A stretch of 42,439 nucleotides of DNA from an uncultured Candidatus Saccharibacteria bacterium (GTDB lineage: Bacteria > Patescibacteriota > Saccharimonadia > Saccharimonadales > Saccharimonadaceae), in assembly GCA_947306585.1 (NCBI GenBank), contig CAMZGX010000002.1, positions 1 through 42,439 of the forward strand. The letters run 5' to 3'. This document shows positions 331 to 18,825 of the stretch, piece by piece (the first letter of the stretch is position 1; each line of letters starts with the position of its first letter). Under the pieces are notes generated by a model. It had not been told where the DNA came from. It saw nothing but the letters and a program-made list of their open reading frames with translations, and did not search any database. The position numbers and the translations under genes are program-made.

Positions 331-427
331 TGTGGAAAACTATCACCCCTGTTATATCCTTACATATTAAAAAATATATTAAAATATCTGCATTTTCTGT
401 GGAAAAGTCGGAAATATTTGTTATAAT
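331..427 (+). promoter_or_regulatory. dnaA promoter with two DnaA boxes
   Basis: The -10 TATAAT is at 422-427. Two DnaA-box variants TGTGGAAAA (reverse of TTTTCCACA) lie at 331-339 and 399-407, the second over the expected -35 position. This suggests that DnaA represses or tunes its own gene, a common arrangement; binding itself is inferred. The rest of 221-472 is AT-rich and holds no gene. Confidence 0.6.
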
Positions 428-1831: not shown

Positions 1832-2066
1832 TGTGGAAAAAGTTGTGAATAAGTATGTTGAAAAGCTGTTTAAAAATTATGGAAAAGATTTAGTGGAAAA
1901 CTCCGAGATTTATAGTTTTCCATACAATTCCACAAATTTAGAAAACTTTTTCCAAACGAAACCCACAACTAAATCCACAAGAAAAATTAACAATTTATCT
2001 CTGTTAAAAATGAGTTTTACACATTTTCCACATAGCTTATTATTACTACTATTAAATAACTTTATA
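1832..2066 (+). other. Probable origin of replication (oriC) between dnaA and dnaN
   Basis: The gap holds DnaA-box-like 9-mers: TGTGGAAAA at 1832-1840, TGTGAATAA (reverse of TTATTCACA) at 1844-1852, and TTTTCCACA at 2024-2032. Weaker variants are AGTGGAAAA near 1892-1900, AATTCCACA at 1926-1934 and AAATCCACA at 1971-1979. Just 4 bases after the last box, 2037-2054 reads TTA TTA TTA CTA CTA TTA, that is six DnaA-trios (3'-[G/A]AT-5') on the lower strand, followed by AT-only DNA. This matches the bacterial basal unwinding module (box, short spacer, trios). An 84-codon frame across the region looks accidental. The location is strongly supported; function is inferred. Confidence 0.85.
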
Positions 2067-2078
2067 AAGGAGGTATAA

Positions 2079-3194
2079 ATGGAAATCACCGTCGATCAAA
2101 GTAAGCTTGCTAAAGCACTTGCTATCGTCTCAAAAGTCGCTACAAGTTCTAGAACAACACTTCCTATTCTCAGTAACGTCTTAATTAAGGTTTTAAATGG
2201 TAAAGTAACTCTTACCACCACCAATTTAGATATGGCAGTAGTAGACTATCTCCCTACTTCAAGCTCTAAAAATGGAGAAATCACTGTTCCAGCACGTCTT
2301 TTAGCCGATTTTGTAGCTAACCTCCCAAAAGGTGAGGTAAAAATTTCTGTAAAAGAAACTAAGATTACCACAACATCTGGAAAATACAAATCCACAATGA
2401 ATGGAACTTCAGCATCTGACTTCCCTGAACTTCCTGAATTAAATGAAAAAGAAGCAGTTATTTATAAAATTCCAGTAGATGATTTTAAAGATGGTATGAG
2501 CTCAGTGAAAATTGCAGCTTCAAATGATACAACTCGTCCATCATTTACCGGTGTATTCTTTAATACTGACAGCGAAAATCTTTATATCGCAGCAACAGAT
2601 GGTTATCGTTTAGCTGAAAGAAAATTAATTTCTGGTATTTCATCAGAAGTAAAAGCAATTGTACCAGCTTCAACAATTACTGAAGTTTTATCTTCAATTT
2701 CAGACGATGTAGAAGAAGTTGAAATCTTATTTGATGAAAGCCAAGTTTGCTTTAGAATGGGTGAAATTGAAATTACTTCAAGATATATTGATGGATCATT
2801 CCCTGATTATAGGAAACTTATTCCAAATTCTGAAACTACAGCTGAATCAATTGAACTTATTTTAAAACGCGATGAAATTTTACGCGTCACAAAACTTGCT
2901 GCATTATTTGCAAAAGAAGTTGGCGGTTCAATTGTGCTTGAAACATCTGCTTCAAAATCAGCACTTTTAGTTTCTTCGGTTGCTAACGAATATGGTGAAA
3001 ACGTCTCAGAAATCGAAACTAGTGTAGATAAAGACATGAAAGTTGTCTTAAACTCAAGATATCTTTTAGATGCAATTAACGCTCTTTCTTCAGATGAAAT
3101 GAAACTCTCAATGTTTGGCGGATTAATGCCAGTAAAAATTGAGGATGCTAAGGATACAAATTACGTTCATATCGTAATGCCTCTTAAGGGTTAA
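2079..3194 (+). CDS. dnaN: DNA polymerase III sliding clamp (beta subunit)
   Basis: DnaN forms the ring-shaped clamp that holds replicative polymerase on DNA and serves as a docking site for repair enzymes. The 371-residue length is typical. The sequence starts MEITVDQSKLAKALAIVSK, has the conserved TRPSFTGV and ATDGYRLA stretches in the middle, and ends with the clamp signature VKIEDAKDTNYVHIVMPLKG (compare the usual P-V-x-I, then MPM/MPL near the C-terminus). The ATG is preceded by AAAGGAGG at 2066-2073. recF follows after 2 bases, so the two are probably one transcript. Confidence 0.97.
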   Translation: MEITVDQSKLAKALAIVSKVATSSRTTLPILSNVLIKVLNGKVTLTTTNLDMAVVDYLPTSSSKNGEITVPARLLADFVANLPKGEVKISVKETKITTTSGKYKSTMNGTSASDFPELPELNEKEAVIYKIPVDDFKDGMSSVKIAASNDTTRPSFTGVFFNTDSENLYIAATDGYRLAERKLISGISSEVKAIVPASTITEVLSSISDDVEEVEILFDESQVCFRMGEIEITSRYIDGSFPDYRKLIPNSETTAESIELILKRDEILRVTKLAALFAKEVGGSIVLETSASKSALLVSSVANEYGENVSEIETSVDKDMKVVLNSRYLLDAINALSSDEMKLSMFGGLMPVKIEDAKDTNYVHIVMPLKG

Positions 3195-3196
3195 TA

Positions 3197-4228
3197 ATGG
3201 TTATTTCCTCAATTAAACTGAAAAATTTTCGTTGTCATGAAGATTTTTGTTACCAATTTTCAAAGAAAACTTCAGTGATAATTGGGGAAAACGGCAGTGG
3301 AAAAACTTCAGTTTTGGAAGCAATTTATGAAGCTTTACGTGGAAAAAGTTTTCGTGCAACTGATCTGGATATTTTAAAAAGACAATCGGATTTTTATCGT
3401 ATTGAAGTTGATTTTAAAAACGGTGAAAAAACCGTAGTGGCGTTTGGTTCCCTTTCTGAAAATGAAATGGCGAAAAAGCAGTTTTTAGTTGGTGGTAAAA
3501 AATATGCACGACTTCCAAAAAAATATCGTTATCCAATTGTTTTATTTTTGCCGGATGATTTACATTTAATTTCATCTTCACCAACTAGAAAACGCGATTT
3601 TTTCGATCGTATTTTATCGGAACTTAATGATACTTATTCTTCAACTTTAAACCGTTATGAAAAAGCTTTAAAACAGCGAAACGATCTTCTTAAAAGCTAT
3701 ACGGAAGGTTCGATTGAAGAAATTCGAAGTGTGATCTTTTCATGGAATTTATTACTCGCAAAATATGGTACTGAAATTCGTCGCGAGCGTAAGAAATTTA
3801 TAGCTGAAATGAATAAACGATTAACAAAAACTTATCGTTCAATTGCTGAAAATAAAGATGAAGTTTTTGTGGAATATAAACTTCAAGGCGATGATATTTC
3901 CGAGAATGATTATTTTAGAAAACTAGAAAGTGAATTGCCGCGTGATTTAATTTTAGGCCATACTGGATTTGGTGTGCACCGTGATAGTTATGAGTTTTTA
4001 TTTAATAATTCCGACGCAAATGGTTCGGCTAGTCGTGGTGAAGTTCGTTCAATAATTCTTGCTATGAAATTTATTGAAGCAGAGCTTATTTATGAAAAAA
4101 TCGGAAAACGACCAATTGTTTTACTAGACGATGTTTTCTCGGAACTTGATGAAATGAGACAGAAAGCTTTAACTCGAAACTTTAAAGAAAATCAAGTAAT
4201 TATTACGAGTGTAGAAGTTGCGGAATGA
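3197..4228 (+). CDS. recF: Recombination mediator RecF
   Basis: RecF is an SMC-like ATPase that acts with RecO and RecR to load RecA at gapped DNA. The 343-residue protein has Walker A GENGSGKTS near residue 31, a coiled region around residues 170-225, the ABC-type signature region and Walker B RPIVLLDDVFSELD near the end. Length is slightly below the usual 360. It follows dnaN by 2 bases with no clear ribosome binding site of its own, so translation is probably coupled. The stop is TGA, one sign that TGA is a true stop in this genome. A bidirectional terminator follows. Confidence 0.95.
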   Translation: MVISSIKLKNFRCHEDFCYQFSKKTSVIIGENGSGKTSVLEAIYEALRGKSFRATDLDILKRQSDFYRIEVDFKNGEKTVVAFGSLSENEMAKKQFLVGGKKYARLPKKYRYPIVLFLPDDLHLISSSPTRKRDFFDRILSELNDTYSSTLNRYEKALKQRNDLLKSYTEGSIEEIRSVIFSWNLLLAKYGTEIRRERKKFIAEMNKRLTKTYRSIAENKDEVFVEYKLQGDDISENDYFRKLESELPRDLILGHTGFGVHRDSYEFLFNNSDANGSASRGEVRSIILAMKFIEAELIYEKIGKRPIVLLDDVFSELDEMRQKALTRNFKENQVIITSVEVAE

Positions 4229-5643: not shown

Positions 5644-7230
5644 TTAGTTAGGTAAATCTTCCCAAAGTGCATCAATTACATCAATAATATAGTGATCATT
5701 TGCAGATTGTGGAGAAACGTTGATATGGAGATGGGCTTGGGTGGTTTGCGCACATTGTGGTAAACCAACTTCACCGATAACTTGGCCAGCTGTGACAGTA
5801 TCACCGCCTTTAACCGCACCAGGATAAGCCATATGGCCTAACCAATATTTCTTACCATCTTCACCTTCTAGTTGTGCTTGTCCGCAACGATTGTGATAAG
5901 CGCTAGGAACTTTATTAGTATACTTTGAGAAGTAGCTGATTTTTCCACCAACTAAAGCAACAACTTTAACGCCAGTTGAATAGTAATACATATCACTTAA
6001 TCCGTCACCAGGGCGATCAGAAGCCTTGAGTTCGGTGTAACCGGCCATACTTGCACGTAGACCAAGGTCGACAGCGTTATAGTCGTGGTGACAGGTGCCA
6101 CTACCACAAGGAACTCTTGATAATACGCTATCTCCTGCTGAACCGCCTGGGTTGAGATAGTTTGATTTAGTTGCGCCTTTTAGCGGAAAGGCGTAGGTGT
6201 AATCGCCAATTTCACGCTTAGTTGGATCGCCACTATCGTCGTCATTTCCACAAATAACTTCGTCTTTCTTCTTTTCTTCTCCTTCTTCAGAGCTTTCTTC
6301 TTCGGATGAGATATCACCGCCACTTTCGACGGAATCAAAACCACCATTTAGATATTGCTGATAGTAGGCCTTAGCTGACTCAACGCGGGCATTGTATGAA
6401 GCGCTTCCCTTTTTACAGCCACTACAAACTTCGTATGAAGCGGCAATATAGCCAGCCATTTCTTCTACGCTATCGAGGCTAAAGAATGCGGAATAAGAGC
6501 CGCTATGAAGCTCTTCGTTGATATATGCGATAGCTGCACACCAAAGGCTCCAGTAATCCTCATCACTGCCGGTTGTGCTTTCGATTTTTGCTTTAAGTTG
6601 AGCATCAGTTAATGAACCCCATTCCTTATAAGCGTCACCTTCAAAATAAGTATCTTTAAGATCTAGGGCGTCGAGTTTTGCGAGATAGCCTTCACGACGA
6701 CCAGCTGATGACCATTGAACAAAACCAAGACCAATACCTACGACTGGTTTACCGTCGCTATAGTGGCTATAAATGGCTTGCATACAAGCAGCGTGGTGTT
6801 CGTTGGTTGTAGTGTGAATTGTGTAGGCTTTTCCCTCTTTAGTTTTACAATTTTTATTACGAGCAATTACATAAGCGGACTCTTGGGTAGTTGGAGTACC
6901 ACCTTCATGGGCGAAGTTACCAAGCAGTGCAGCGGTTTGTTCTGGAGTGAAGCCGTAGCCCCTAATACCGGACCAAAGTTTTTCATCCTTAGTATCACCA
7001 ATAATATTACAGTTTGCACCAACAACTGATCTACATTTTTTCTTTCCCTTTTTCCCGTCAGGGTTATAGAAAACGATGTTGTTTTCGCCAAATTCATCGT
7101 CACGTCCGTTAGGGAGTTGTACTTTTGCGAAGACTGGTTTTGATAAACCAGCGCTCACTAAAATAATGACAGCTGATAGATAACACAAAAAAGATTTAAA
7201 AAAGTTTTTAAGAGAATTCTTAACCTTCAT
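5644..7230 (-). CDS. Secreted two-domain wall hydrolase: phage-tail-type lysozyme plus M23 peptidase
   Basis: The 528-residue protein begins with a signal peptide (about residues 1-35, ending VFA). Residues about 80-295 match the phage tail lysozyme fold: GFTPEQTAALLGNFAHEGG, with Glu109 as the probable catalytic acid, followed by GIGLGFVQWSSAGRR. A Ser/Glu-rich linker covers about 300-330. Residues about 345-515 form an M23 (LytM-like) zinc metallopeptidase with the ligand pattern H381/H382 to D388 (HHDYNAVD) and H500-L-H502. It would cut both glycan strands and peptide crosslinks, opening the wall for the secretion channel, a VirB1-like job. Four or more cysteines suggest disulfides. A -10-like TAAAAT lies 9 bases before the ATG, and I see no ribosome binding site. 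Confidence 0.85.
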   Translation of the reverse strand: MKVKNSLKNFFKSFLCYLSAVIILVSAGLSKPVFAKVQLPNGRDDEFGENNIVFYNPDGKKGKKKCRSVVGANCNIIGDTKDEKLWSGIRGYGFTPEQTAALLGNFAHEGGTPTTQESAYVIARNKNCKTKEGKAYTIHTTTNEHHAACMQAIYSHYSDGKPVVGIGLGFVQWSSAGRREGYLAKLDALDLKDTYFEGDAYKEWGSLTDAQLKAKIESTTGSDEDYWSLWCAAIAYINEELHSGSYSAFFSLDSVEEMAGYIAASYEVCSGCKKGSASYNARVESAKAYYQQYLNGGFDSVESGGDISSEEESSEEGEEKKKDEVICGNDDDSGDPTKREIGDYTYAFPLKGATKSNYLNPGGSAGDSVLSRVPCGSGTCHHDYNAVDLGLRASMAGYTELKASDRPGDGLSDMYYYSTGVKVVALVGGKISYFSKYTNKVPSAYHNRCGQAQLEGEDGKKYWLGHMAYPGAVKGGDTVTAGQVIGEVGLPQCAQTTQAHLHINVSPQSANDHYIIDVIDALWEDLPN

Positions 7231-7274
7231 ACTACTTTTATTTTACCATAATCACGATGGAAAAAGTAGAAAAA

Positions 7275-7943
7275 TTAGTCGCAGCTAGAATATTTAACGG
7301 TATATTTTGTGAGATCGATTTTCTTTTCTTCGAGATATTCTTTGGCTTTGGCTTTTAATTTTTCAATACGAGAATTATCGCAGGTGTAAAGATAGATATT
7401 AATATCGATATTTCCCGATTCTTCTTTTTCGGCATAGATTTTGTAACCAGATGGATAATCGTCGTATGGAGTTACATTCCAAATATTATCAGTGCCAGTG
7501 TAATTTTGTTGAAAAATATCAGCGATTTTGTCGGAAATTTTCTGAGCGCGAGCAGCTTCTTTTTCGTTATCTTTATAATAAGTTCCGTCTTCACTTGATT
7601 CGTTTAGATATTCATAAATATAAGCGGTCTCGCCGTCATTAGCTTTAATGGAGCCATTATAAGAAATAAAGCCATCTTTTTCGATTTTTACAGAATAAAC
7701 GCCAGGCTTAATTTTAATAGTGGTATCGGTTGGAAAAATGTGGCCATCAATGATTAATTTAGCATCTGATGGAGCAACAAGTACTTCAATAGTAGCAGTT
7801 TTATCGGCGTTAACAATTAAATCAACAACAGAATAAACTGCAATACCAACAAAAGCTAAAACGATTAAAATACCAGTCCAGCGAACAATTTTCTTTTGTT
7901 TTTCATTCGACTCGAAACGAAAGAGATTTTTCTTTTCAATCAT
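7275..7943 (-). CDS. PEGA-domain membrane protein
   Basis: The 222-residue product has a cytoplasmic start, one membrane helix at about residues 22-44, then a PEGA domain (TIEVLVAPSDAKLIIDG through PGVYSVKIEKDGF) at about 53-105. PEGA domains are small beta folds found in surface and S-layer-linked proteins and in CPR envelope proteins. The rest is an unassigned alpha/beta region with one Cys pair near the end. A GTG at 7958 is in frame, but the ATG at 7943 shares its A with the stop of the upstream gene (TAATG) and has GGAAAGGAA before it, so I start there. Translational coupling to the transglycosylase gene suggests that the two products work in the same apparatus. Confidence 0.8.
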   Translation of the reverse strand: MIEKKNLFRFESNEKQKKIVRWTGILIVLAFVGIAVYSVVDLIVNADKTATIEVLVAPSDAKLIIDGHIFPTDTTIKIKPGVYSVKIEKDGFISYNGSIKANDGETAYIYEYLNESSEDGTYYKDNEKEAARAQKISDKIADIFQQNYTGTDNIWNVTPYDDYPSGYKIYAEKEESGNIDINIYLYTCDNSRIEKLKAKAKEYLEEKKIDLTKYTVKYSSCD

Positions 7944-9202
7944 TAATTTCCTTTCCACCTGTAGGCTTTAAATGTAGCAGAGTTATCATAGAATGGGCCG
8001 ATCTCACCGGTACGGCCGCCGTAGCTTGCGCTGGCAATTTTACCAACACCATCAACTTCAACATACATTTCAATGTGTCCATTTGAAAGGCGTATATCAC
8101 CCGGCTTGAGTGAGCCAGCTTTATTTAGCACCTCGACAAATTTACCGGAGTTTACGACGTAGTTGTAAGTTGCACCATGGTTGGAAACGCCGCAGCAAGC
8201 GAAGTTTGGATCAACGCCAGAATATCTGAAAACGGTGGTGACGAAGGCGTCACAGCTGGCGCCAATACGAGCGTAATAATCACCGTAGTTACTGAGTCCA
8301 ACTTCAGCTAAAGCGGTTTTATAAGTATCGCGTGGAGTGAGTCCGTGACCGTGTTCTGGCCAGGCAAGGTTGATTGCAGTTTGGTTTAAATCACCATTAC
8401 CACTACCGTAGTTTGAGCAGCTAGAAAAGCCAGAGCTACCACCGAGTGAGGCATAAATAACAAATGCACCTGGTTGAAGGTTGGCTGGGCTATTTAAGCC
8501 GCCGCCATCGGTTTTAATTTGTTTCCAGTTAGGATTTTTACGAGAATCACGTTTCTCGTCAGCAAGGTTCATGACATATGGAGAACCTTCACCACGGTTA
8601 GCCTCAGCTTCTGAAAAACCAAGATCGCGAGCTTGAGAAATGTAAGCTTTGGCGGTACCGTTGTAGCGGAAGAAGAAAGTCTTTACGCCATCGTCAGTAT
8701 TGAGATTAAGACCGGCGCCATAATTATCACGAATAAGTTTTGCTACGATGTCGGTTTGGCGTTGGAATTCTGAATCAGAAATTGGGCCAGCTGGAAGGAA
8801 GGCATTACTGTTTGAACCACCAGCGGTGTATGAATAAAGCTGATATGCACCTTGACCGTTGCTTGGGTTGTAACGAACAAGTCCAGATTCACGGAAATGA
8901 AGAGCAGCGATTAGTTGCCATGAAAGACCATATTTATTAGCAGACTTTTCATAGAATGGCTTGTTCTCGGAAATCTTTTTAAGAGCATCGGCTGTTAAAA
9001 CTGGATCACCATTATAAAGCTTATTGTCGCCAGAAGTTACGGAACCGGAGCTTGGATTACAATCTTCTCCATCTGGATCGTAGTAATAAATGTAGTTTAA
9101 ATCGAATTTATCCCAAGTTTTTTCTTTTAATGCAAAAACTGCAGCACTAGAATGAAGTGTAAGAATGGTTGCGATCGAGAGAATACTTAAGAGTTTTTTC
9201 AT
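7943..9202 (-). CDS. Secreted lytic transglycosylase with C-terminal NlpC/P60-like domain
   Basis: The 419-residue protein has a signal peptide (about 1-24, ending VFA). Residues about 85-200 look like a lysozyme-type transglycosylase: SWQLIAALHFRESGL, with Glu105 as catalytic acid, then GQGAYQLYSY. Residues about 290-415 resemble an NlpC/P60 or CHAP amidase/endopeptidase: Cys317 in GASCDAFV and His376 in NGHIEMYV are the expected nucleophile and base. This pairs a glycan cutter with a peptide cutter, as VirB1-like proteins of Gram-positive T4SSs do. Its mature N-terminus (YYYDPDGEDC) resembles that of the hydrolase at 5644 (VFYNPDGKKG). The start overlaps the preceding gene's stop by 4 bases (ATGA). 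Confidence 0.8.
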   Translation of the reverse strand: MKKLLSILSIATILTLHSSAAVFALKEKTWDKFDLNYIYYYDPDGEDCNPSSGSVTSGDNKLYNGDPVLTADALKKISENKPFYEKSANKYGLSWQLIAALHFRESGLVRYNPSNGQGAYQLYSYTAGGSNSNAFLPAGPISDSEFQRQTDIVAKLIRDNYGAGLNLNTDDGVKTFFFRYNGTAKAYISQARDLGFSEAEANRGEGSPYVMNLADEKRDSRKNPNWKQIKTDGGGLNSPANLQPGAFVIYASLGGSSGFSSCSNYGSGNGDLNQTAINLAWPEHGHGLTPRDTYKTALAEVGLSNYGDYYARIGASCDAFVTTVFRYSGVDPNFACCGVSNHGATYNYVVNSGKFVEVLNKAGSLKPGDIRLSNGHIEMYVEVDGVGKIASASYGGRTGEIGPFYDNSATFKAYRWKGN

Positions 9203-11916
9203 GCTGCAAAACTCCTATTTCTGAGATCGTAAAACTCAACACTACTAAAGACGTAAGCTAAAATGTCATTCTTAATTCCCTGCTTCAAATGTAATTTGTA
9301 TTTAGTTTTTTCTTCTTCTGGTGGATGATAATTTGCGAGATAATCGTAATAATAAACTAACGCAATTACATCTTCTGCTTCATCTTTTGTCATACCAGTA
9401 TAACGAGCGATTAAGCCAGATTCGGAAGTATCGATTGGGTTAACTTCATACCAAGCTTCCTTGAAAGCAAGAACTGGTGATTTAATAGAACCGTCTTCTT
9501 TTCTGGTTTCTTCGAGTTCGATTTGAGTTGCAATGCGTTGATCTTCTGCAAAATGTTGTGCATATAATAATTCGTCGAAGTGTGGGTTGGTTTCTTCGTT
9601 CATAACACAGAATCTACCAGTTGACCAACCTTCAGTTTCTGGATCCATGTCTTCTACGGCATTAAGAAGATCAATAGCGTCATTTAAGATTGGGATTTGG
9701 TCAGCGAAACCGAAGCTAGTTTCAAATGCGGCAGCAATGTTTGCGTCGTAGACGCCAAATGGGCTATCGCGTTCATCGCAGTACATAGTTTTGTTGGCGA
9801 GGAATGAGTTTGGAATAATTTCATAAGTACCGTCAGCTTGTTTTCTAACGTTCTTTTCAAGGAAGACGACATAGTCTGGATCGTCACTTGCAAGATTCAT
9901 GACTTTTGGATGGGTAGCAGTAATTTCTTCACCATACATACCACAATCTGCGCCGATGCTTGCGAGATTCTCACAAGTTGATTGATCTGCGAAAACAGTT
10001 GAATAGTCGGTGCCAGCTAAGTCGTAGTCGACAGTATAATCTGGGTCGGTGATGCTATTGGCAAAGGTTTTAGTTGTACCCATGTTGAAAAGATTTGCAA
10101 AAGTTGTACCAACGAGATTTGAGGTATTTGCAATAGTGCTGACGACTGATGTGCTGCCAACGATAGTTGAGAAATTGCGAGCAATTTTACCATAGAAAGT
10201 GTCTGGAGATGAGGCATCGAATGGGCTCTTATTTTTGCGACCTAATTCAGATTCCATAGCGTTGGCGATTTGGGTTTGGCGAGCGTAAGCGGTTGCAGTT
10301 TCTTTAGTAGCAAGAGCTTGTCCACTTGTGCTTCTAGCAACCTTTTTATTGCCAAGTGCAGCACCTTTAACGAAGTTTTCGCCAGCTGGAATGCCAGCGA
10401 GTGAGTCAGCAGTGTTTTCAAAGAGACTCATAGCGATTTTTGGAATCATAACTGAAAGCATGGCGGTAATACCAGCTTGGAGTGCGGCGTTAATGATAGT
10501 GACCTTAGCGAGAGTTGCGATAGATTTTACGATGCCACCACCCATGAGGCCGACCGCGATAGATACGGTTGCGCCAACGGCGCGAAGACCACCGCAAACA
10601 GTGTGGCTGGTAGCGCCAAGGCCAACTGCTGCAATAGTAGAAGTCATGAAGGCTGATTCAACAGCAAAGTTTTTAGTTTGATTGAGATTTGGATTTGTAC
10701 CAGCAAGAACATTTGCGAAACCTTGAGCTTCGATTGGAGCGCCAGTGATTTCCTTTTCTTCACCAGTTTCGGCATCGGTATAAGTTGTCGTAGTAGGTTC
10801 ATTTAAGAAATTCAAAAGATAGTTTTGAGCAGCGTTGTTGCCATCGCCAGCTTTGGTTTTACTAATGTTTTCAGCATTACTTAGGAAGTAGTTGATAGCT
10901 TGATAAATTTCAGCAGCTGCGACAGTTACGGAAATCATGTTAGCAACTTTAAGTGCTGCACAAGCGAGGCTGGTGCTATCAGCAACGCGGCCAGCAATAT
11001 CCATGAGGTAGCCTTTAGCCTTAACTCTTGAATCGCCACCTTGAGAGCTGGTGACATCTTCACCGGAGCGAACTTTTTCCATGACTGGATTGCCGTCGTC
11101 ATCGTAGACTGGTTTACCATCCTCGTCAGTTTTTTGACGTTCAGTGATTGTGTTCATTGAACCAGTAGTAGCATCGTCAAAAAGATCGGTTTCAACTTTT
11201 TTATAAGCCTTGGTGTCGGCGTCAGCATCGCCGGTTTGGCGATAACTTCGATAAAGGTTTCTGGAAATACCAAGTCTCGTAAAGGCAAAGGTTGCGCTTA
11301 AATCAAAGAAGTTTGAAGTACGACCACGTTTAGCTTTAGTGAAAGCTTCGCGGAAATTAACGTCGCTACTATAAGTACTACGGAAAGTTGATGAGGTTAC
11401 TTGGATGCCAGACCAATCGAGAGTGTAACCACCTTCTCCACCGGAAACGCTAATTCCCTGGTCTTTTAAGCGGTCTTCAAAATATTCTGGAAATTCACCA
11501 CGTTTGCCGGCTAATAATTCTTCGGTAACACGAATGGTGTTTTCTGAGTAAGATCCAAACATAGTGTCAGTTGCACGAGTGATGAGGGTTTCAATTTGAT
11601 TGCCAAGTGAGCCAACCATGGTAAACATGACAAAGATAGCAGTGAAAGCTAAGCCGCCAATTAAAAGAAGCGGAAGACTCTTTTTAATTCTGGCGCCACG
11701 TGAAAGTTTACGTGATTTTTTGAAACGTTCAGCTAAATGTTTGCCGTGTCCAGTGTAGCTAAAATTCTTTTCAGTATGTTCTTCAACGTTTTTCGCAGAG
11801 TCAGTTGCGGTCTCAGTTTTTGCTTCAACTTTTGGTGTTTTAACGGCTGAAGCTTCGGCAGCGCGCAAAAAATCAGGAGTAATAGAATCTTTGCCGAAAT
11901 AAGCTTCTTTAACCAT
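9199..11916 (-). CDS. Large multi-helix membrane protein of the T4SS-like block, family unknown
   Basis: The 905-residue product has a charged cytoplasmic N-terminus (about 1-83), a strong membrane helix at about 84-108 and a large soluble region (about 110-320). Hydrophobic, alanine- and glycine-rich segments at about 320-345 and 430-500 look like further helices. A long C-terminal soluble domain (about 510-905) contains several cysteines. I recognise no motif. Its position between VirB4 and the wall hydrolases, and its size, suggest a structural channel subunit in the place where VirB6/VirB8-type proteins sit, but this is inference. Its ATG lies directly against a perfect 12-bp hairpin (11917-11947). 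It ends with a 4-base overlap with the transglycosylase gene. Confidence 0.75.
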   Translation of the reverse strand: MVKEAYFGKDSITPDFLRAAEASAVKTPKVEAKTETATDSAKNVEEHTEKNFSYTGHGKHLAERFKKSRKLSRGARIKKSLPLLLIGGLAFTAIFVMFTMVGSLGNQIETLITRATDTMFGSYSENTIRVTEELLAGKRGEFPEYFEDRLKDQGISVSGGEGGYTLDWSGIQVTSSTFRSTYSSDVNFREAFTKAKRGRTSNFFDLSATFAFTRLGISRNLYRSYRQTGDADADTKAYKKVETDLFDDATTGSMNTITERQKTDEDGKPVYDDDGNPVMEKVRSGEDVTSSQGGDSRVKAKGYLMDIAGRVADSTSLACAALKVANMISVTVAAAEIYQAINYFLSNAENISKTKAGDGNNAAQNYLLNFLNEPTTTTYTDAETGEEKEITGAPIEAQGFANVLAGTNPNLNQTKNFAVESAFMTSTIAAVGLGATSHTVCGGLRAVGATVSIAVGLMGGGIVKSIATLAKVTIINAALQAGITAMLSVMIPKIAMSLFENTADSLAGIPAGENFVKGAALGNKKVARSTSGQALATKETATAYARQTQIANAMESELGRKNKSPFDASSPDTFYGKIARNFSTIVGSTSVVSTIANTSNLVGTTFANLFNMGTTKTFANSITDPDYTVDYDLAGTDYSTVFADQSTCENLASIGADCGMYGEEITATHPKVMNLASDDPDYVVFLEKNVRKQADGTYEIIPNSFLANKTMYCDERDSPFGVYDANIAAAFETSFGFADQIPILNDAIDLLNAVEDMDPETEGWSTGRFCVMNEETNPHFDELLYAQHFAEDQRIATQIELEETRKEDGSIKSPVLAFKEAWYEVNPIDTSESGLIARYTGMTKDEAEDVIALVYYYDYLANYHPPEEEKTKYKLHLKQGIKNDILAYVFSSVEFYDLRNRSFAA

Positions 11917-11947
11917 AAAATAAGAGACCTTTTATGTCTCTTATTTT
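11917..11947 (-). promoter_or_regulatory. Perfect 12-bp inverted repeat between virB4 and the 905-residue protein gene
   Basis: On the minus strand the arms (AAAATAAGAGAC and its exact complement) flank a 7-base loop, and the last arm ends immediately before the ATG at 11916. The AAAAGG in and beside the loop is the only ribosome-binding-site-like sequence. A TGTTAAAAT extended -10 overlaps the outer arm (TAAAAT at 11948-11943). It could be a weak terminator after virB4, a translation-control hairpin, or both. Confidence 0.6.
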
Positions 11948-11980
11948 AACATCTTTTCCCCTATTTTAAAAGCATAAAAA

Positions 11981-13819
11981 CTAACGTTGCCCAGGCTGAT
12001 TCATGCGAGCAGCTGGGTTAGTTGTAATGAGTCCTTCCTCAGTCTCAGAAGCGATAACTTGAATATGAACGTGGTTTTGTCCAGCAAAGAACAAACCTTG
12101 TCCGACTGGGAAGTTAGCAAGACGTTTTTTCTCTTCTTCGGTGAGTTTGAAGACGTCTGAAAGCACATCAACCGCAGCGGCAGATTGCTTCAAAAGAAGC
12201 TGGAGTGATGAGTTGTGAACGATTGCACGACCCATTTTGCTGGACATGAAGTCTTCAACGTCCTGAGTGATAGTAGTAAGGCCAAGATAGTACTTACGAG
12301 CACGCTTAGCAAGGCTGAAGAGGAAGTTTGCGGAGTCATCATATTTCATGAGTTGCCATGCCTCATCAACGATGAGAAGGCGTTTTCTTTGATCGGCGCG
12401 AACGACGTTCCAAATGTGTGAAAGCACAATGTACATTGCAACTGGACGAAGTTCATCTTCAAGGTCACGAATGTTGAAGACAACCATTTGGTTATTGATG
12501 TCGATGTTTGATTGTTGGCTGAAGATACCTGCAAAAGTACCAGTGGTGTATTTGCGAAGACGCTGTGCGAGTTGTGGACCAGTTCCACCCATGTGAAGCA
12601 ATGTATCGTAAAGATTGATGATAGTTGGTGGAGTAGACTGATGTGTTAATGGATCAGAAGTAATACCAGCACGAGCATAAGTATCAATCAAAGCCTGATC
12701 AAGGTCAGCTTCTTCGTTTGGTGAAAGAGCTGGGGTGGCAAGACCATTTGGACCAATTTGAGTGCCACCAAGCATGAGACGGAAGAGGCCGTGAAGAGTG
12801 ACGAGGTTAGCGCGAAGCGCATCGGAAGCGTCTTCGGTATCGATTACCTTTGGAAGGTCGAATGGGTTAATACGAACATCTGAGTTAAGTGATAAACGAA
12901 CATATGAACCACCAACAGCGTCACAAAGACGTTGATACTCGTTTTCAGGGTCAATAATCAAGATTTCAGCGCCAAGCATCATTGAGCGGAGAGCTTCAAG
13001 CTTAACGGTGAAGGATTTACCTGCACCAGATTTAGCGAAGACAACCATGTTGGCGTTCTCAAGTGTGAAGCGGTCGAAAATGACGAGACCGTTGTTGTGC
13101 ATGTTGATACCATAAAGAATACCACGCTCCTGAGTAAGGTCAGCTGAGGTGAATGGGAAGGAAGTTGAAATTGCGCCAGTGTTCATGTTGCGGCGAACTT
13201 GAAGCTGATCGGTACACATTGGCATGGTGGTGTTCATTCCCTGCTCTTGCTGTGATGAAGCAACCTTTGAGAAAACCATTTGTTGGCCGAAGAGAGTTTC
13301 AATCTTGTGTTGAACGAAGTTCAATTCGTCGAGAGAATCTGCCCAAATTGTGACATAAAGACCAAAGCGGAAGAACTTTTCTGAGCCAACTTGGAGAGCG
13401 TCACGAAGTTCCTCGGCATCCTGGATAGCAGCGTCGGTTTCTGGGTTACGAATTCTTCCCTTTTCAGCATTAAGAGAGATATCAGCTTCGAGCTGAGTAA
13501 CTTTCTTACGAAGGTTTTTCATAACGATTGCAGTATCAACTGGATAAATGTACATTGAAATATCGAGCACTTCATCGATGTTGATGAGTGGTGAAAGCCA
13601 ACCAGTATAGAGTGTACGTGGATAGCCATAAACATACATAGTACGGCCATACTTAGTACCAAGACGGAAGTAGCTTGAATGAATTTCAATTGAGCTTGGA
13701 GAAATAAGATCACGGAGAGTAGTGATACCTTGCTCGAAGGCGCGCTGAATTTCTGCGTCTTCCATAGTCTGAGCTTGTGCGGCAAGCTCGGCTGCGGTGA
13801 GTTTCTTCTTCTTTGCCAT
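11981..13819 (-). CDS. virB4: VirB4-family T4SS ATPase
   Basis: This is the motor ATPase that powers pilus assembly or substrate transport at the inner membrane. The 612-residue protein has a VirB4/TrbE-type N-terminal part (about 30-230) and a RecA-like ATPase core. Walker A is AKSGAGKS at 262-269, followed by EILIIDPENEYQRL. Walker B is RLLIVDEAW at about 480-488, then GLTTITQDVEDFM with the Gln expected in this family. It is shorter than a full VirB4 (about 800). The neighbouring 260-residue TraC-like protein, which shares a TAATG stop-start, may supply the missing N-terminal portion. GGAGG precedes the ATG at 13819. Confidence 0.93.
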   Translation of the reverse strand: MAKKKKLTAAELAAQAQTMEDAEIQRAFEQGITTLRDLISPSSIEIHSSYFRLGTKYGRTMYVYGYPRTLYTGWLSPLINIDEVLDISMYIYPVDTAIVMKNLRKKVTQLEADISLNAEKGRIRNPETDAAIQDAEELRDALQVGSEKFFRFGLYVTIWADSLDELNFVQHKIETLFGQQMVFSKVASSQQEQGMNTTMPMCTDQLQVRRNMNTGAISTSFPFTSADLTQERGILYGINMHNNGLVIFDRFTLENANMVVFAKSGAGKSFTVKLEALRSMMLGAEILIIDPENEYQRLCDAVGGSYVRLSLNSDVRINPFDLPKVIDTEDASDALRANLVTLHGLFRLMLGGTQIGPNGLATPALSPNEEADLDQALIDTYARAGITSDPLTHQSTPPTIINLYDTLLHMGGTGPQLAQRLRKYTTGTFAGIFSQQSNIDINNQMVVFNIRDLEDELRPVAMYIVLSHIWNVVRADQRKRLLIVDEAWQLMKYDDSANFLFSLAKRARKYYLGLTTITQDVEDFMSSKMGRAIVHNSSLQLLLKQSAAAVDVLSDVFKLTEEEKKRLANFPVGQGLFFAGQNHVHIQVIASETEEGLITTNPAARMNQPGQR

Positions 13820-14601
13820 TATTGTGCTCCTCCCTGTTCAGGTTTTGCGCCTTTCTTTACATATGTGGTTGCCATTTTGTTGAAATCTACGAATGGTTCG
13901 CGGACTGCTGTGTCTGGGTTGTTGAAGTTATAGAAGAGTTCCGAGAGCTCTTTAGTGTTTAAGCGGACCGAGTGAATACCGATTTGGAAGAGACCAGAAA
14001 TGATCGATTCAACACGGTTGTTAATTTCAGTGACGGCTTTGTCATAGGTTGCACGATCGATTTTAGTGACGATTGGTTCCTTTGAACCGAAGACACCGGA
14101 GAAAATACCTTTAACCTGAGTTGAGGCTTTTTCAGCGTCAGCATTGGTGTAATATGGAACAACGATGAAGAATGATTTGTCCATAATGTTTGCTTCTTGG
14201 GAGAGGATGTCGATGAAGTTGATGTAATCGTCCATGAGAACGCCGAGAAGCATGTTGTCGGTGTTACGACGAATGTCGGAGAGTCTTTCAAGATAAGGGC
14301 CAATATCGACGCGCTGTGAGCGAATCATGATCTGAGTAGTGAAGTTTAATGAGTTGATGAATCCTTGATATGAGTACTCAACAGCTTCACGTTCGGTCTC
14401 GGACATGAGGTCGAAGTTGATTGATTTACAAGCAATGACAGCGCGGAATGAGCCGTCTTTCATAATTGCGAGCCCGTCACGAAGCTCGGAAATTAATAAT
14501 GTGGTTTGAGTAGCGGTGTTGCTGTCTGGGATAGGATGTTCCGCTCCGTTTGGAGCTTCCGGAATCGCCATCGCTACACCTTGTGGTTGTTGTGGATTCA
14601 T
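13819..14601 (-). CDS. TraC-like T4SS protein
   Basis: The 260-residue soluble protein has a low-complexity, Pro/Gln-rich start. Residues about 30-180 resemble the N-terminal part of TraC/VirB4-type proteins: DGLAIMKDGSFRAVIACKSINF, then SETEREAVEYSYQGFINSL and the IRSQRVDIGPYL segment. There is no Walker motif, so it is not itself an ATPase. It probably partners the VirB4 ATPase encoded immediately downstream (1-base overlap, TAATG). AGGAG precedes the ATG. The PrgI gene lies 31 bases upstream, so PrgI, TraC-like and VirB4 form one translational unit, the typical order in CPR and Gram-positive T4SS loci. Confidence 0.8.
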   Translation of the reverse strand: MNPQQPQGVAMAIPEAPNGAEHPIPDSNTATQTTLLISELRDGLAIMKDGSFRAVIACKSINFDLMSETEREAVEYSYQGFINSLNFTTQIMIRSQRVDIGPYLERLSDIRRNTDNMLLGVLMDDYINFIDILSQEANIMDKSFFIVVPYYTNADAEKASTQVKGIFSGVFGSKEPIVTKIDRATYDKAVTEINNRVESIISGLFQIGIHSVRLNTKELSELFYNFNNPDTAVREPFVDFNKMATTYVKKGAKPEQGGAQ

Positions 14602-14632
14602 CTATTTTCTCTCCTTAATCTTTTCTCGGTTA

Positions 14633-15715
14633 TTAACTAAATATTGCGGTTGGTGGGCCATAGAGGTCTGGACGGTCATTGACCGGTTTTTGCTCTTCCT
14701 GAATTGGCTTATAAAGTTGGCCAGGCTCAGTTTCGTGAGGTAGTGGCATTGACATTGGCTCAAATGTCGGAGCTTTAAGTCCAGCTTCGTTATTTTGCAT
14801 CATAGCAGCACCACCATTAGTGATACGGTGAGCTTGTTGTGCGATAGTTTGGATGGTGAAAGTATTGTTGTTGGCAAGGTCTTGCATTTGTTGGTTAATA
14901 GCAGCTTGATTAAGGGATGCTTGGGTAAGCTGCTGAATACTTGGTTGTGGTGCTGGAGCAGGAGCAGGCATTGGCATAGTAGTGACTGGTTGTGGTGCTG
15001 GTGTAGGAGTCGGATTGTAGTTTGCACCAGGAGCTTGAATTGGACGAGGCTCAAATTGTTGAGGCTGTGGTAAAGGCATAGTAGTGACTGGCTGTGGTGT
15101 TGGTGCAGGAGCTGGCTGATCGTTGACGAGATTGTCGGTACGATTGATAGCGGTGCGCATTTGAGCAACGAGCTCTTGTTTCCTAGCAGTTTGTTCCTGT
15201 TCGATAATGCGATCGATAACTGGGTTATCAGCATCAAGTACATCTTCAATAGTATCTGCTTCGGCAGCATACTCTTCTTTCATGGCAGAGTCGCCACGAA
15301 TAGCGTAACCTTCGGTATCGACGATGGTTGCGAGGAATGAAAGGCGGTGTGAAGCTTCTTCTTCAGTAATGTCGCGAACACGAGATTTTTCAACCTTCTT
15401 TGGAGCGGTAATTTTAATGGTTGATTCCCTTTGGCCGGCAGTCCAGATGCGACGGTTTGGTTTTAGATAAAAGCTAACAAGTGCAGCGAGATAAGTTTCC
15501 ATTGGCTGATCTTTGCGGATTGGTAGAGCTAAAATTCCAAAAAAGAATACAAAAGGAAGCGGAATTAACGCTAAGAGTGGGAAAAGTTGAAAAAGACCCC
15601 ACGCCCCAGCAATTCCGGCCGCAGCAATAAGTAGATAGACAAACTGACGGAAAGTAAATGGTCCGAGAAGCTTGTCTTCTGCCTCAACATCTTGAGGGAC
15701 CTTATATTGAGCCAT
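14633..15715 (-). CDS. PrgI-family (VirB3-like) membrane protein with Pro/Gln-rich tail
   Basis: The first 115 residues match the PrgI family: MAQYKVPQDVEAEDKLLGPFTFRQ, two membrane helices at about 26-42 and 45-65, then the PLRIRKDQ-like turn and FYLKPNRRIW. PrgI corresponds to VirB3, which joins the VirB4 ATPase to the inner-membrane pore. The tail (about 130-360) is unusual: disordered, rich in Pro, Gln, Ala and Thr, with two copies of a PQPVTTMP repeat also visible in the DNA. PrgI proteins usually lack such a tail, so it may bind partners in the cytoplasm. TATAAT at 15731-15726 leaves a leader of only about 3 bases, with no ribosome binding site. Confidence 0.85.
   Translation of the reverse strand: MAQYKVPQDVEAEDKLLGPFTFRQFVYLLIAAAGIAGAWGLFQLFPLLALIPLPFVFFFGILALPIRKDQPMETYLAALVSFYLKPNRRIWTAGQRESTIKITAPKKVEKSRVRDITEEEASHRLSFLATIVDTEGYAIRGDSAMKEEYAAEADTIEDVLDADNPVIDRIIEQEQTARKQELVAQMRTAINRTDNLVNDQPAPAPTPQPVTTMPLPQPQQFEPRPIQAPGANYNPTPTPAPQPVTTMPMPAPAPAPQPSIQQLTQASLNQAAINQQMQDLANNNTFTIQTIAQQAHRITNGGAAMMQNNEAGLKAPTFEPMSMPLPHETEPGQLYKPIQEEQKPVNDRPDLYGPPTAIFS
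14973..15111 (-). repeat. Two copies of a 37-bp direct repeat inside the PrgI gene
   Basis: Copies at 14973-15009 and 15075-15111 differ at three positions. They encode the repeated Pro/Gln/Thr segment around PQPVTTMPLP and PQPVTTMPMP in the disordered tail. Confidence 0.85.
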
Positions 15716-15725
15716 AGATAAATAT

Positions 15726-15731
15726 ATTATA
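15726..15731 (-). promoter_or_regulatory. -10 element of the PrgI-TraC-VirB4 transcript
   Basis: A perfect TATAAT (15731-15726) preceded by ATGT lies 10 bases before the PrgI ATG and after the terminator of the VirB6 gene. It is the only promoter-like site seen before the run of genes down to about 11981. Confidence 0.6.
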
Positions 15732-15753
15732 ACATGAGCACAATAAAAAACCT

Positions 15754-15785
15754 AAAAAATAACCCCAATTTTTGGGGTTATTTTT
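15754..15785 (-). terminator. Terminator of the VirB6-like gene
   Basis: A 9-bp stem AATAACCCC / GGGGTTATT (58-66 and 74-82 of 15700) is flanked by A and T runs, so it works on the minus strand directly after the stop at 15787. Confidence 0.85.
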
Positions 15786-15786
15786 C

Positions 15787-18700
15787 CTAGTCAGTAAGGT
15801 CGTCCGAACCGTCACCATCGTTTGCGGAAGGAACCGGAGCGTTTGGATTTGGAGCTGGAGTCTTTCCCTTTCTGAGTTCATCGCGAATGCGTTGATTTTC
15901 AGCTTGACGTTCACGATAGATTTCTTCGCGGCGTTCGCCAATGTGGAGGGCTTTGTAGATAGGCTCTTTCATCATATCCACGTTCATGTTACCAGAAGCA
16001 ACCTTGGTGATGAGACCACTGAGCTGACCTCTGAGTTGTTCGTGAGCAAGAGCTTCGGCTTGCGCATAGCCTTCTTCAGTATCAATCTTGATATTATGTT
16101 CTCTAGCTTTATCAGCGGTGATACGAGCAACGATACCGCCCCAAGTATCTGACTTCATTGAGATGAGATCACGAGCAGTAAGTGCGCCGAGGTATTTATC
16201 CATAACGGTCTTAGTAACTCTTGTTTCGACTTCTTGGTCAAAGGCAGAGCGGCTATCAATATGGATATTATCTTTCCATTTACCAGTAGCTGAATCATAC
16301 TTCATACCAGTCATATGGCCAACCATTGAACGGATTTGTTCTGAACCAGAAGCGAAGGTTGGGAGAGCTGAAACTTCCTGTGGAAGCATTGCACTTTCAA
16401 TAGCCATACGAGCATTATATGCGTCATCGACAGAGTAACCTTTTTCTGCGGTGAACTGTTTGGTAATAGCTTCGAGTGCGCCGTAAGCAGTACGGTCGAT
16501 ACCGACAAGCTTAGTACCCTCAAGACCAGATGCAAGGTTAATCTTAGTTTTGTATGGTTCACCCTTTTTATTAATATCACCCTCAACAACACCAGTGAGG
16601 TATTGTTCCATGGTAATTTCCTGAGTTTGGCGGTTACCGTCGGTGTATGCCCAAGTTTCCATGTTCATGAATTTACCGAGACGAGCAAGTGCAGGTGCAG
16701 AATCTTTCATGCCAAGGAAGTTCATCGCGAGTACGTTTGAAGCATCTTCGCCGAGTTTAATCTTGCCAGAGTTCATGTAGTCTGTCATGTGGGCAGCGAT
16801 CTTATCGTAGTCACCACGTTTTGCAAGAATATTATGGGATGCGATGATACCGTCGATGTTGTCGTACTTGATCATATCTTCATATTGACGAACAACTTCC
16901 TTAGTAACCTGTTTATCCATGTAAGCTTCGAAGCGCTTAATATTTGCAGCGCGTTGTGCTTCGTTTCTACTGTAAGCATCACCAACGACGTTGATGCGAG
17001 CTTGGTCAGCAAGACGGGCACCTTCTGCAGTAGTCTGGTTAACATCGTAGCCAGTTGCACCAAGTGCGCCATTGACGAGCTTGTTATAAAGAGCAGCATT
17101 CTTGAGGTCGCCAGCTTTGACGCCCTTCTCGGCATCATCGAGTTGATAACGTTCAGCGGCTTTCATGACGGATTCGTTATAGAAGCGGTCATCAGCTTCT
17201 TCGTTTCTAGCTTTAGCCGCCATTTGAGTGCGGAGATCGAGGTAGTGGCCACCCATTCTAGCACCGTTCTTGATAGCACGGCCGTGGCGGATACCCTTTT
17301 CCTTCTGGTAATCAGCAAGGTTGTCGTAAGCGTTGTCTACAGAAAGATTGTCTGCCATGTTTCTGAGGCCGATTTCACGAGATTCAGCTTCAGCGTCCAT
17401 GTACTTATTAGTACGTCTAATTGGGAGCTGAGTATAGATTGGCTGATCGTTCTTATCGTAGCCAATAATACGGCTGTTCTTTCTAAGCGCGTTTAAGTTC
17501 TCATTGACAAGGCCAGCATTGGTCTTATCATATTGTTCTTGACGGAATTTGAGGTTTGCTTTTCTCTTTGCGGAGTATGCACGCCATGAACCACCAGAGA
17601 GTGGGTTGAATGGTTTACGCATTGACTTTGAGAGCTGTTTTGCGCGAGCAAGGTCTTTGTATGGGTCGGTGAAACCACGGACACCAGAGGTTGCTTTGTC
17701 GCCAAGACGACCAAGTGCGTTACCAATACCACCGAGGACGGTACCAGCCATCTTCATGAGTGAGAGAGCAAGAATAAGTGGGAGAACTTGGACTGCGAGA
17801 CCAAGAATAATACCAAGCATACTGTTTGCTGAGCTAATGAAGATCCATGATGCAAGTTTTGATGCACCAAAGAGAAGGCTAAACATTGGGTAGAAGAAGA
17901 GCATCTGTGAGAAGATTTGAGTCCACTTCTTGTACCACTTTTCAGTGTTTGGAAGGAGGTATGCTACGAATGCGAGTGGTGAGATTGCGACGAGCAAGAT
18001 AATAACAGCTTGGCGGAGTGAGATGGTAACGAGACCGATAATAACAGAGATAATACCACCAAGGATGATTGGCATAAGTGCGAGGAGAAGTCCAAGTGGA
18101 CCGCCAGCGAGACCAACTGCAAGGGCGCCGATTACGCCACCAGCTGCGATAGTAGTAAATACGCTATAGAAGTCAACAGAGACATCTGCGCTTACTACGC
18201 CATTATTGAGTGCTTCTTGAGCAACATTGCCGAGGAAGTCATGAAGACCTCTACCGACGATATTGCTTACGTCAACAGCGATTGCTGAGAGAACATAAGA
18301 TAAGTTAACTAGGATAGCAGCAATAATGAGCTTTGGAAGAGCCTTTTTGATGCCATAGTTAGAGATACCAAAGCCGGTAATTTGTGAATAGATGATAAAT
18401 AGGAAGAAAATTACGAAGACGACGTTGGTAATATTGCGGATGTAGAGCCAGATGACATGAACTGGGGAGTCATTTTCCATTGAAATTGGTTCGACAACGA
18501 GGAAATCTTCAATAACACCGTAAATTGTGTCGATACCCTTTGAAAGGAAGGCCATAGTTGGACAAAGGAGCCAGCCAAGACCGCCAACCTGTGAATAACA
18601 GGTAGCATTTTCGGTTGCTTCCGTCTCTTTTTCATCGTCATCCTTCTCTTCTGAGTCTTCTGGTTCTTCAGTATCGCGGTCACTAGGTTCTCCCGGGACT

Positions 18701-18825
18701 ACGGTTCCGGTTTCTGGTGTAGGATCTGCGTAAACAGGGGTAGTGAAGGTGAGAGCGGAAGTTGCAAAAATTATTCCAATCAACGGAAAGATTAATGCCC
18801 TTTTAAGTTTTTCAAATAGTTTCAT
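15787..18825 (-). CDS. VirB6/TrbL-like T4SS inner-membrane channel protein
   Basis: The 1012-residue protein starts with a signal peptide (about 1-33, ending VYA), then an acidic linker. Residues about 120-395 hold six to eight hydrophobic helices with the Gly-rich LAVGLAGGPLGLLLALMP segment, the layout of VirB6/TrbL proteins that form the inner-membrane pore. The remaining 600 residues are a highly charged, helical region, likely cytoplasmic or coiled, ending in a Pro/Asp-rich tail. Such long C-terminal extensions are known for VirB6 proteins of symbionts and of Gram-positive T4SSs. It has its own TATAAT promoter near 18863-18858 and a strong terminator. It faces away from the pilin genes across a 160-base gap. 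Confidence 0.82.
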   Translation of the reverse strand: MKLFEKLKRALIFPLIGIIFATSALTFTTPVYADPTPETGTVVPGEPSDRDTEEPEDSEEKDDDEKETEATENATCYSQVGGLGWLLCPTMAFLSKGIDTIYGVIEDFLVVEPISMENDSPVHVIWLYIRNITNVVFVIFFLFIIYSQITGFGISNYGIKKALPKLIIAAILVNLSYVLSAIAVDVSNIVGRGLHDFLGNVAQEALNNGVVSADVSVDFYSVFTTIAAGGVIGALAVGLAGGPLGLLLALMPIILGGIISVIIGLVTISLRQAVIILLVAISPLAFVAYLLPNTEKWYKKWTQIFSQMLFFYPMFSLLFGASKLASWIFISSANSMLGIILGLAVQVLPLILALSLMKMAGTVLGGIGNALGRLGDKATSGVRGFTDPYKDLARAKQLSKSMRKPFNPLSGGSWRAYSAKRKANLKFRQEQYDKTNAGLVNENLNALRKNSRIIGYDKNDQPIYTQLPIRRTNKYMDAEAESREIGLRNMADNLSVDNAYDNLADYQKEKGIRHGRAIKNGARMGGHYLDLRTQMAAKARNEEADDRFYNESVMKAAERYQLDDAEKGVKAGDLKNAALYNKLVNGALGATGYDVNQTTAEGARLADQARINVVGDAYSRNEAQRAANIKRFEAYMDKQVTKEVVRQYEDMIKYDNIDGIIASHNILAKRGDYDKIAAHMTDYMNSGKIKLGEDASNVLAMNFLGMKDSAPALARLGKFMNMETWAYTDGNRQTQEITMEQYLTGVVEGDINKKGEPYKTKINLASGLEGTKLVGIDRTAYGALEAITKQFTAEKGYSVDDAYNARMAIESAMLPQEVSALPTFASGSEQIRSMVGHMTGMKYDSATGKWKDNIHIDSRSAFDQEVETRVTKTVMDKYLGALTARDLISMKSDTWGGIVARITADKAREHNIKIDTEEGYAQAEALAHEQLRGQLSGLITKVASGNMNVDMMKEPIYKALHIGERREEIYRERQAENQRIRDELRKGKTPAPNPNAPVPSANDGDGSDDLTD

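Follow-up and report, generated by a model that had tools for sequence, protein, structure and literature searches.

A predicted DnaA-trio unwinding module between dnaA and dnaN in an uncultured Saccharibacteria bacterium

Introduction

The dnaA-dnaN gap of an uncultured Saccharibacteria bacterium raises the question of whether the place at which its chromosome opens for replication can be read from the sequence. The window analysed here is a stretch of 42,439 nucleotides, contig C2 of a draft genome of 709,102 bases in 55 contigs, and its gene order is rpmH (minus strand, identified by eye), dnaA, dnaN and recF, with a dnaA-dnaN gap at 1832-2078. The relatives retrieved with its DnaA were Saccharibacteria, such as Candidatus Nanosyncoccus alces (DnaA identity of 52%).

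As described in the main text of Pelliciari et al. (2021; PMC8287927), elements of the basal unwinding system (BUS) were predicted in 1755 of 2070 bacterial oriCs, the rules being at least three DnaA-trios and a DnaA box within 16 bp, with tandem boxes as the commonest arrangement; the same authors suspected that deviant trios exist. Saccharibacteria are not discussed in that main text, and none of the papers listed by our literature search combined DnaA-trios with Saccharibacteria or CPR. In a closed Saccharibacteria genome, that of Candidatus Teamsevenus rhizospherense, Starr et al. placed the origin between dnaN and dnaA (PMC6031116), the same gap as the one considered here.

Results and discussion

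Architecture of the dnaA-dnaN gap

The complete module consists of tandem DnaA boxes, a 4-nt spacer and six DnaA-trios (Table 1). The original prediction had described a box, a spacer and six trios between dnaA and dnaN, and on re-reading the sequence these coordinates proved exact; a second box, abutting the first on its upstream side, had been overlooked, and the DNA between the trios and the dnaN ribosome binding site, which had been called AT-only, contains one C. Both boxes differ from the standard motif at no more than two positions, the limit used for BUS boxes, and the six strict trios begin 4 bp from the box, where the BUS rule asks for at least three trios with a middle adenine at a distance of at most 16 bp.

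Table 1. Features of the dnaA-dnaN region (positions in the window)
Feature	Position	Strand	Remarks
Two DnaA boxes upstream of dnaA	331-339, 398-406	-	perfect; TTTTCCACA
Second copy of conserved element	346-354		CCCCTGTTA; upstream of dnaA
dnaA	473-1831	+	452 aa; Pfam Bac_DnaA (7.7e-51), Bac_DnaA_C, DnaA_N; TIGR00362 above cut-off
Two DnaA boxes, left end of gap	1832-1840, 1844-1852	-	perfect; TTTTCCACA, TTATTCACA
Conserved element	1998-2006	+	TCTCTGTTA; approximately 25 nt before the downstream box
Upstream DnaA box of tandem pair	2015-2023	+	TTTTACACA; 2 mismatches to TTATCCACA; in nearly all relatives
Downstream DnaA box	2024-2032	+	TTTTCCACA; 1 mismatch to TTATCCACA
Spacer	2033-2036	+	TAGC, 4 nt
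Six DnaA-trios	2037-2054	-	upper TTA TTA TTA CTA CTA TTA; lower 3'-AAT AAT AAT GAT GAT AAT-5'
AT-rich stretch, trios to dnaN RBS	2055-2065		one C at 2060
dnaN RBS	2066-2073		AAAGGAGG
dnaN	2079-3194	+	sliding clamp; TIGR00663 above cut-off
recF	3197-4228	+	TIGR00611 above cut-off

The DnaA encoded directly upstream would be the initiator expected to bind the module. It keeps the arginine finger R270 together with I196 and I199 (R264, I190 and I193 in Bacillus subtilis), the arginine finger and hydrophobic ISM residues expected of a cognate initiator.

The module lies in a cluster of DnaA boxes: 11 boxes with at most one mismatch were found in 1800-2080, compared with 2.3 per kb elsewhere. On the long contigs of relatives, DnaA boxes are likewise most concentrated at the dnaA-dnaN gap in G175, G181 and G201; in G129 the gap ranks second, behind the region upstream of dnaA. 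No trio array was found beside the two boxes upstream of dnaA in the window.

In 28 of the 72 same-family gaps analysed below, a YYTGTT motif precedes the box by 15-32 nt, compared with 2.9% of other windows in the same gaps. In the window, a YCYCTGTTA-like element precedes both the unwinding module and dnaA. The possibility that CTGTT represents an extended -10 promoter was rejected because the positions 3' of CTGTT are too variable.

Uniqueness of the trio array

To estimate how often such an array arises by composition, the 247-nt gap was subjected to dinucleotide shuffling, and at least four strict trios lying 0-8 nt from a box with at most two mismatches were sought. None of 5000 shuffles reached four trios, compared with the six observed, and 1440 shuffles of the 72 gaps gave at most three trios beside a box. 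In addition, the exact sequence CCACANNNNYTAYTAYTA is present in a single copy in the whole 709,102-base draft genome, from which its reversed control is absent. Runs of at least five trios with a box were confined to the dnaA-dnaN gap in the contigs searched from two relatives (160 kb and 554 kb), and a loose form of the pattern gave 36 matches in 99 genomes of the genus, all but two of which adjoin the end of the dnaA gene; the two others lie off the dnaA contig (G234:C9 and G164:C10). A low-complexity repeat arising by chance would suit an AT-rich gap and so simple a repeat, but this explanation is refuted by the shuffles, by the single genomic copy and by conservation, the module being kept in relatives at about 50% DnaA identity, and its probability is negligible.

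Conservation in relatives

Alignment of the dnaA-dnaN gaps of Saccharibacteria, which had been proposed as a check of the module, bore it out, as the module is kept in the same gap of 72 genomes of the family. Every one of these gaps (72/72) contains a box-like 9-mer, then 4 nt, then a YTA triplet; the genomes comprise 41 members of the genus of the window and 31 of other genera, and they are not independent samples. Since this anchor was itself the search pattern, the value of 1.00 for the first triplet holds by construction, while choosing the best anchor gives triplets 2-6 no more than a mild advantage. Strict YTA was found at triplets 1-7 in fractions of 1.00, 0.88, 0.78, 0.54, 0.85, 0.59 and 0.10 of the 41 genus genomes, and at triplets 1-4 in 1.00, 0.74, 0.58 and 0.13 of the 31 others. 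As three trios persist in the other genera and six in the genus, the family core comprises three trios, the fewest allowed in PMC8287927, and the genus of the window carries a longer, six-triplet array.

Conservation over triplets 1-6 in the genus has a period of three, with the other frames near 0. The third base is A in 1.00, 1.00, 0.98, 1.00, 0.98 and 0.83 of the 41 genomes, and the middle base is T in 1.00, 0.90, 0.80, 0.59, 0.85 and 0.68; that is, the third trio base (T on the lower strand) is kept in approximately 97% of cells and the middle adenine in approximately 80%. At triplet 4 the middle adenine is often missing, the sequence being CAA, a kind of deviant trio whose existence Pelliciari et al. 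suspected. The better retention of the third base than of the middle adenine distinguishes this genus from the B. subtilis BUS. The spacer length of 4 nt is nearly constant among the Saccharibacteria relatives, and a clade of 21 genus genomes has a one-base overlap between its two boxes, unlike the predicted BUS set as presented in the main text of Pelliciari et al. (PMC8287927).

The same arrangement is seen again in other CPR groups. Among 36 dnaA-dnaN gaps of other, named CPR, 14 have at least three NTA triplets located 3-6 nt from a box, compared with 3.5% of shuffles, and their spacer is 3 or 4 nt. This recurrence extends the evidence that opening through a box, spacer and trios is ancestral to bacteria.

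An alternative hypothesis is that the conserved stretch represents the dnaN promoter and 5' leader, with the YTA repeat as an incidental part of an AT-rich leader. A sigma-70-like TTTACA-16-TATTAT does overlap the module (2016-2043), the conserved CTGTT element lies upstream and the ribosome binding site follows directly. However, promoter matches were not above those in shuffles (6 found, 7.3 expected), and a promoter leaves unexplained both the near-constant 4-nt box spacing and the period-3 conservation of six triplets in untranslated DNA. We therefore regard this explanation of the conserved stretch as very unlikely, although the module may possibly double as a dnaN promoter.

Strand composition and the position of the origin

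Because the window contig begins 472 nt before dnaA and lacks the left flank, relatives were used to locate the skew step. In seven of them, per-gene GC skew at 4-fold sites was fitted by a regression with gene strand and one step as its terms. Measured from the end of dnaA, the best step lay at +0.1 kb in G175, +2.6 kb in G201, -1.6 kb in G210, +4.5 kb in G126, -3.8 kb in G072 and +0.1 kb in G129. Six of the seven relatives therefore place it within 4.5 kb of the dnaA end, G175 and G129 exactly in the gap; in the seventh, G181, the best step is at +54 kb, with an interval that includes dnaA. The breakpoint interval runs from -4.5 to 1.3 kb in G129, and that of G210, from -56 to +27 kb, is wide. 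In all seven relatives the gain from the step exceeded the permutation 95% maximum.

In place of the switch in GC skew by which the original prediction was to be judged, a step at or near the gap is present in six of seven relatives once gene strand is corrected for, and in this genus the origin is marked by this corrected step alone; the raw skew keeps its sign at dnaA. On both sides of dnaA, raw synonymous skew is positive in G175 (554 kb), G181 (385 kb), G210 and G126 and negative in G201. The sign does not change in this genus because a chromosome-wide strand bias is superimposed, and this bias was the least expected observation of the study. By comparison, the cumulative GC skew of Candidatus Teamsevenus rhizospherense is symmetric, whereas the tested genus members show no sign change at dnaA. 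At 4-fold sites, dnaN is more G-rich than dnaA in 36 of 41 genus members and in 21 of 31 other genomes of the family; as these genomes are kin and gene-specific codon bias is possible, p-values for these counts are optimistic. In the window itself the difference is opposite to the expected direction (dnaA -0.69, dnaN -0.77).

These data also bear on the possibility that opening occurs elsewhere, either upstream of dnaA or approximately 50-60 kb downstream, with the gap serving only as a DnaA-binding regulatory site. In its favour, G175, G181 and G129 show a flip in gene orientation approximately 40-70 kb downstream of dnaA, the single-contig genome G129 has its raw skew minimum at about +52 kb, and two perfect boxes stand upstream of dnaA. 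Nevertheless, after regression on gene strand the G129 breakpoint moves to the gap and five other genomes concur, and the contigs searched hold no other array of at least five trios with a box; an opening site away from the gap is thus highly improbable. Most G129 genes within 60 kb downstream of dnaA are oriented against the direction of the fork, which accounts for the position of the raw minimum in this genome. Raw cumulative GC skew was rejected as an origin marker, being misleading in this genus and 52 kb off in G129; used alone, raw skew would misplace or miss the origin in the genus of the window.

A monotone cumulative skew has been described in some Microgenomates, for which one-directional replication was suggested (PMC7143001). 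Forks fired mostly one way round the chromosome from the origin at the module would explain the constant skew sign across dnaA, the step at the module and the clade-dependent sign, but we consider such a mode in this genus unlikely. If forks did run one way, the polarity of the module would not be what determines their direction, because this polarity is the same in all genomes while the bias of G201 is opposite.

Because gene orientation in the genus still diverges around dnaA, it is at odds with the skew on the left side. Within the genus the skew of dnaA at 4-fold sites spans -0.97 to +0.74, and close relatives can have opposite signs, even very close ones (-0.70 and +0.44 in L001 and L031, -0.66 and +0.37 in L032 and L033). 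These opposite values suggest fast flips of strand composition.

A basal unwinding system and its likely mode of action

Together, the conservation of the module in the gap, the skew breakpoint and the box cluster support the proposed match to the box-spacer-trio unwinding module of other bacteria. Given the sequence, arrangement, conservation and uniqueness of the module, the box cluster and the skew step in relatives, all of them direct observations, the module between dnaA and dnaN is almost certainly the BUS of the chromosome origin. The sequence also argues strongly that the melting site can be pinned to one place, as had been predicted, and it gives this reduced and probably host-dependent lineage a precise candidate site of origin melting. 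It is well supported that the device itself is one already known from most bacteria, and that what is new are its lineage-specific details.

The BUS of the B. subtilis oriC (PMC6669920, PMC10721633) likewise has tandem boxes, a short spacer and trios on the strand whose 3'-5' direction leads away from the boxes, and the complex solved for that species engages six trios, the number present in the window. The boxes are TTTTCCACA and TTTTACACA here and TTATCCACA in B. subtilis. The trios lie 13 bp (9 + 4) beyond the upstream box, which matches the commonest spacer given in the main text of PMC8287927.

By analogy with B. subtilis and with six other species in which strand separation has been demonstrated, DnaA would bind the tandem boxes (2015-2032) as double-stranded DNA, and the orientation of the boxes would pass the DnaA filament across the 4-bp spacer onto the lower strand. 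The filament would then extend from 2037 in the direction of dnaN, each trio taking up one protomer, and the resulting stretching of the lower strand would open the DNA from 2037 to approximately 2065, which would allow the replicative helicase to load.

DnaA residues predicted to read the trios

In the B. subtilis structure, Asn187 touches the middle adenine and Arg202 and Glu228 touch the guanine; these base-contacting residues are helpful, yet not universally conserved (PMC10721633). The DnaA of the window keeps the glutamate (E234) but has S193 in place of N187 and K208 in place of R202. The N187 position is serine in 36 of 41 genus members. At the R202 position, lysine or arginine is found in 5 of 41 genus members, in none of the 31 other family members and in 34 of 36 other CPR; most Saccharibacteria have N, S, A or T there, and K208 of the window is unusual among them. 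Near the ISM the alignment is nearly gapless for the window, while gaps of one or two residues occur just before R202 in some other genera. In most Saccharibacteria, DnaA no longer carries the Arg/Lys that in B. subtilis touches the trio guanine, and the trio arrays are kept; other CPR retain Lys. Altered trio recognition in Saccharibacteria is a possibility that these sequences raise. Three-trio and six-trio arrays, interrupted triplets, the one-base box overlap and the lost base-reading residues constitute natural variants that could reveal which trio contacts matter.

Genes adjoining the origin region

Soon after dnaA-dnaN-recF, the window carries a type IV secretion-like cluster on the minus strand (5644-18825), whose members include a lysozyme/M23 protein (5644-7230) and a VirB4-like ATPase (11981-13819); T4SS genes close to dnaA have been reported in Patescibacteria (PMC12102498). 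The 4-fold sites of five minus-strand genes in this interval are nearly without G (31 G vs 452 C), a stronger bias than that of dnaA-dnaN-recF (28 G vs 61 C).
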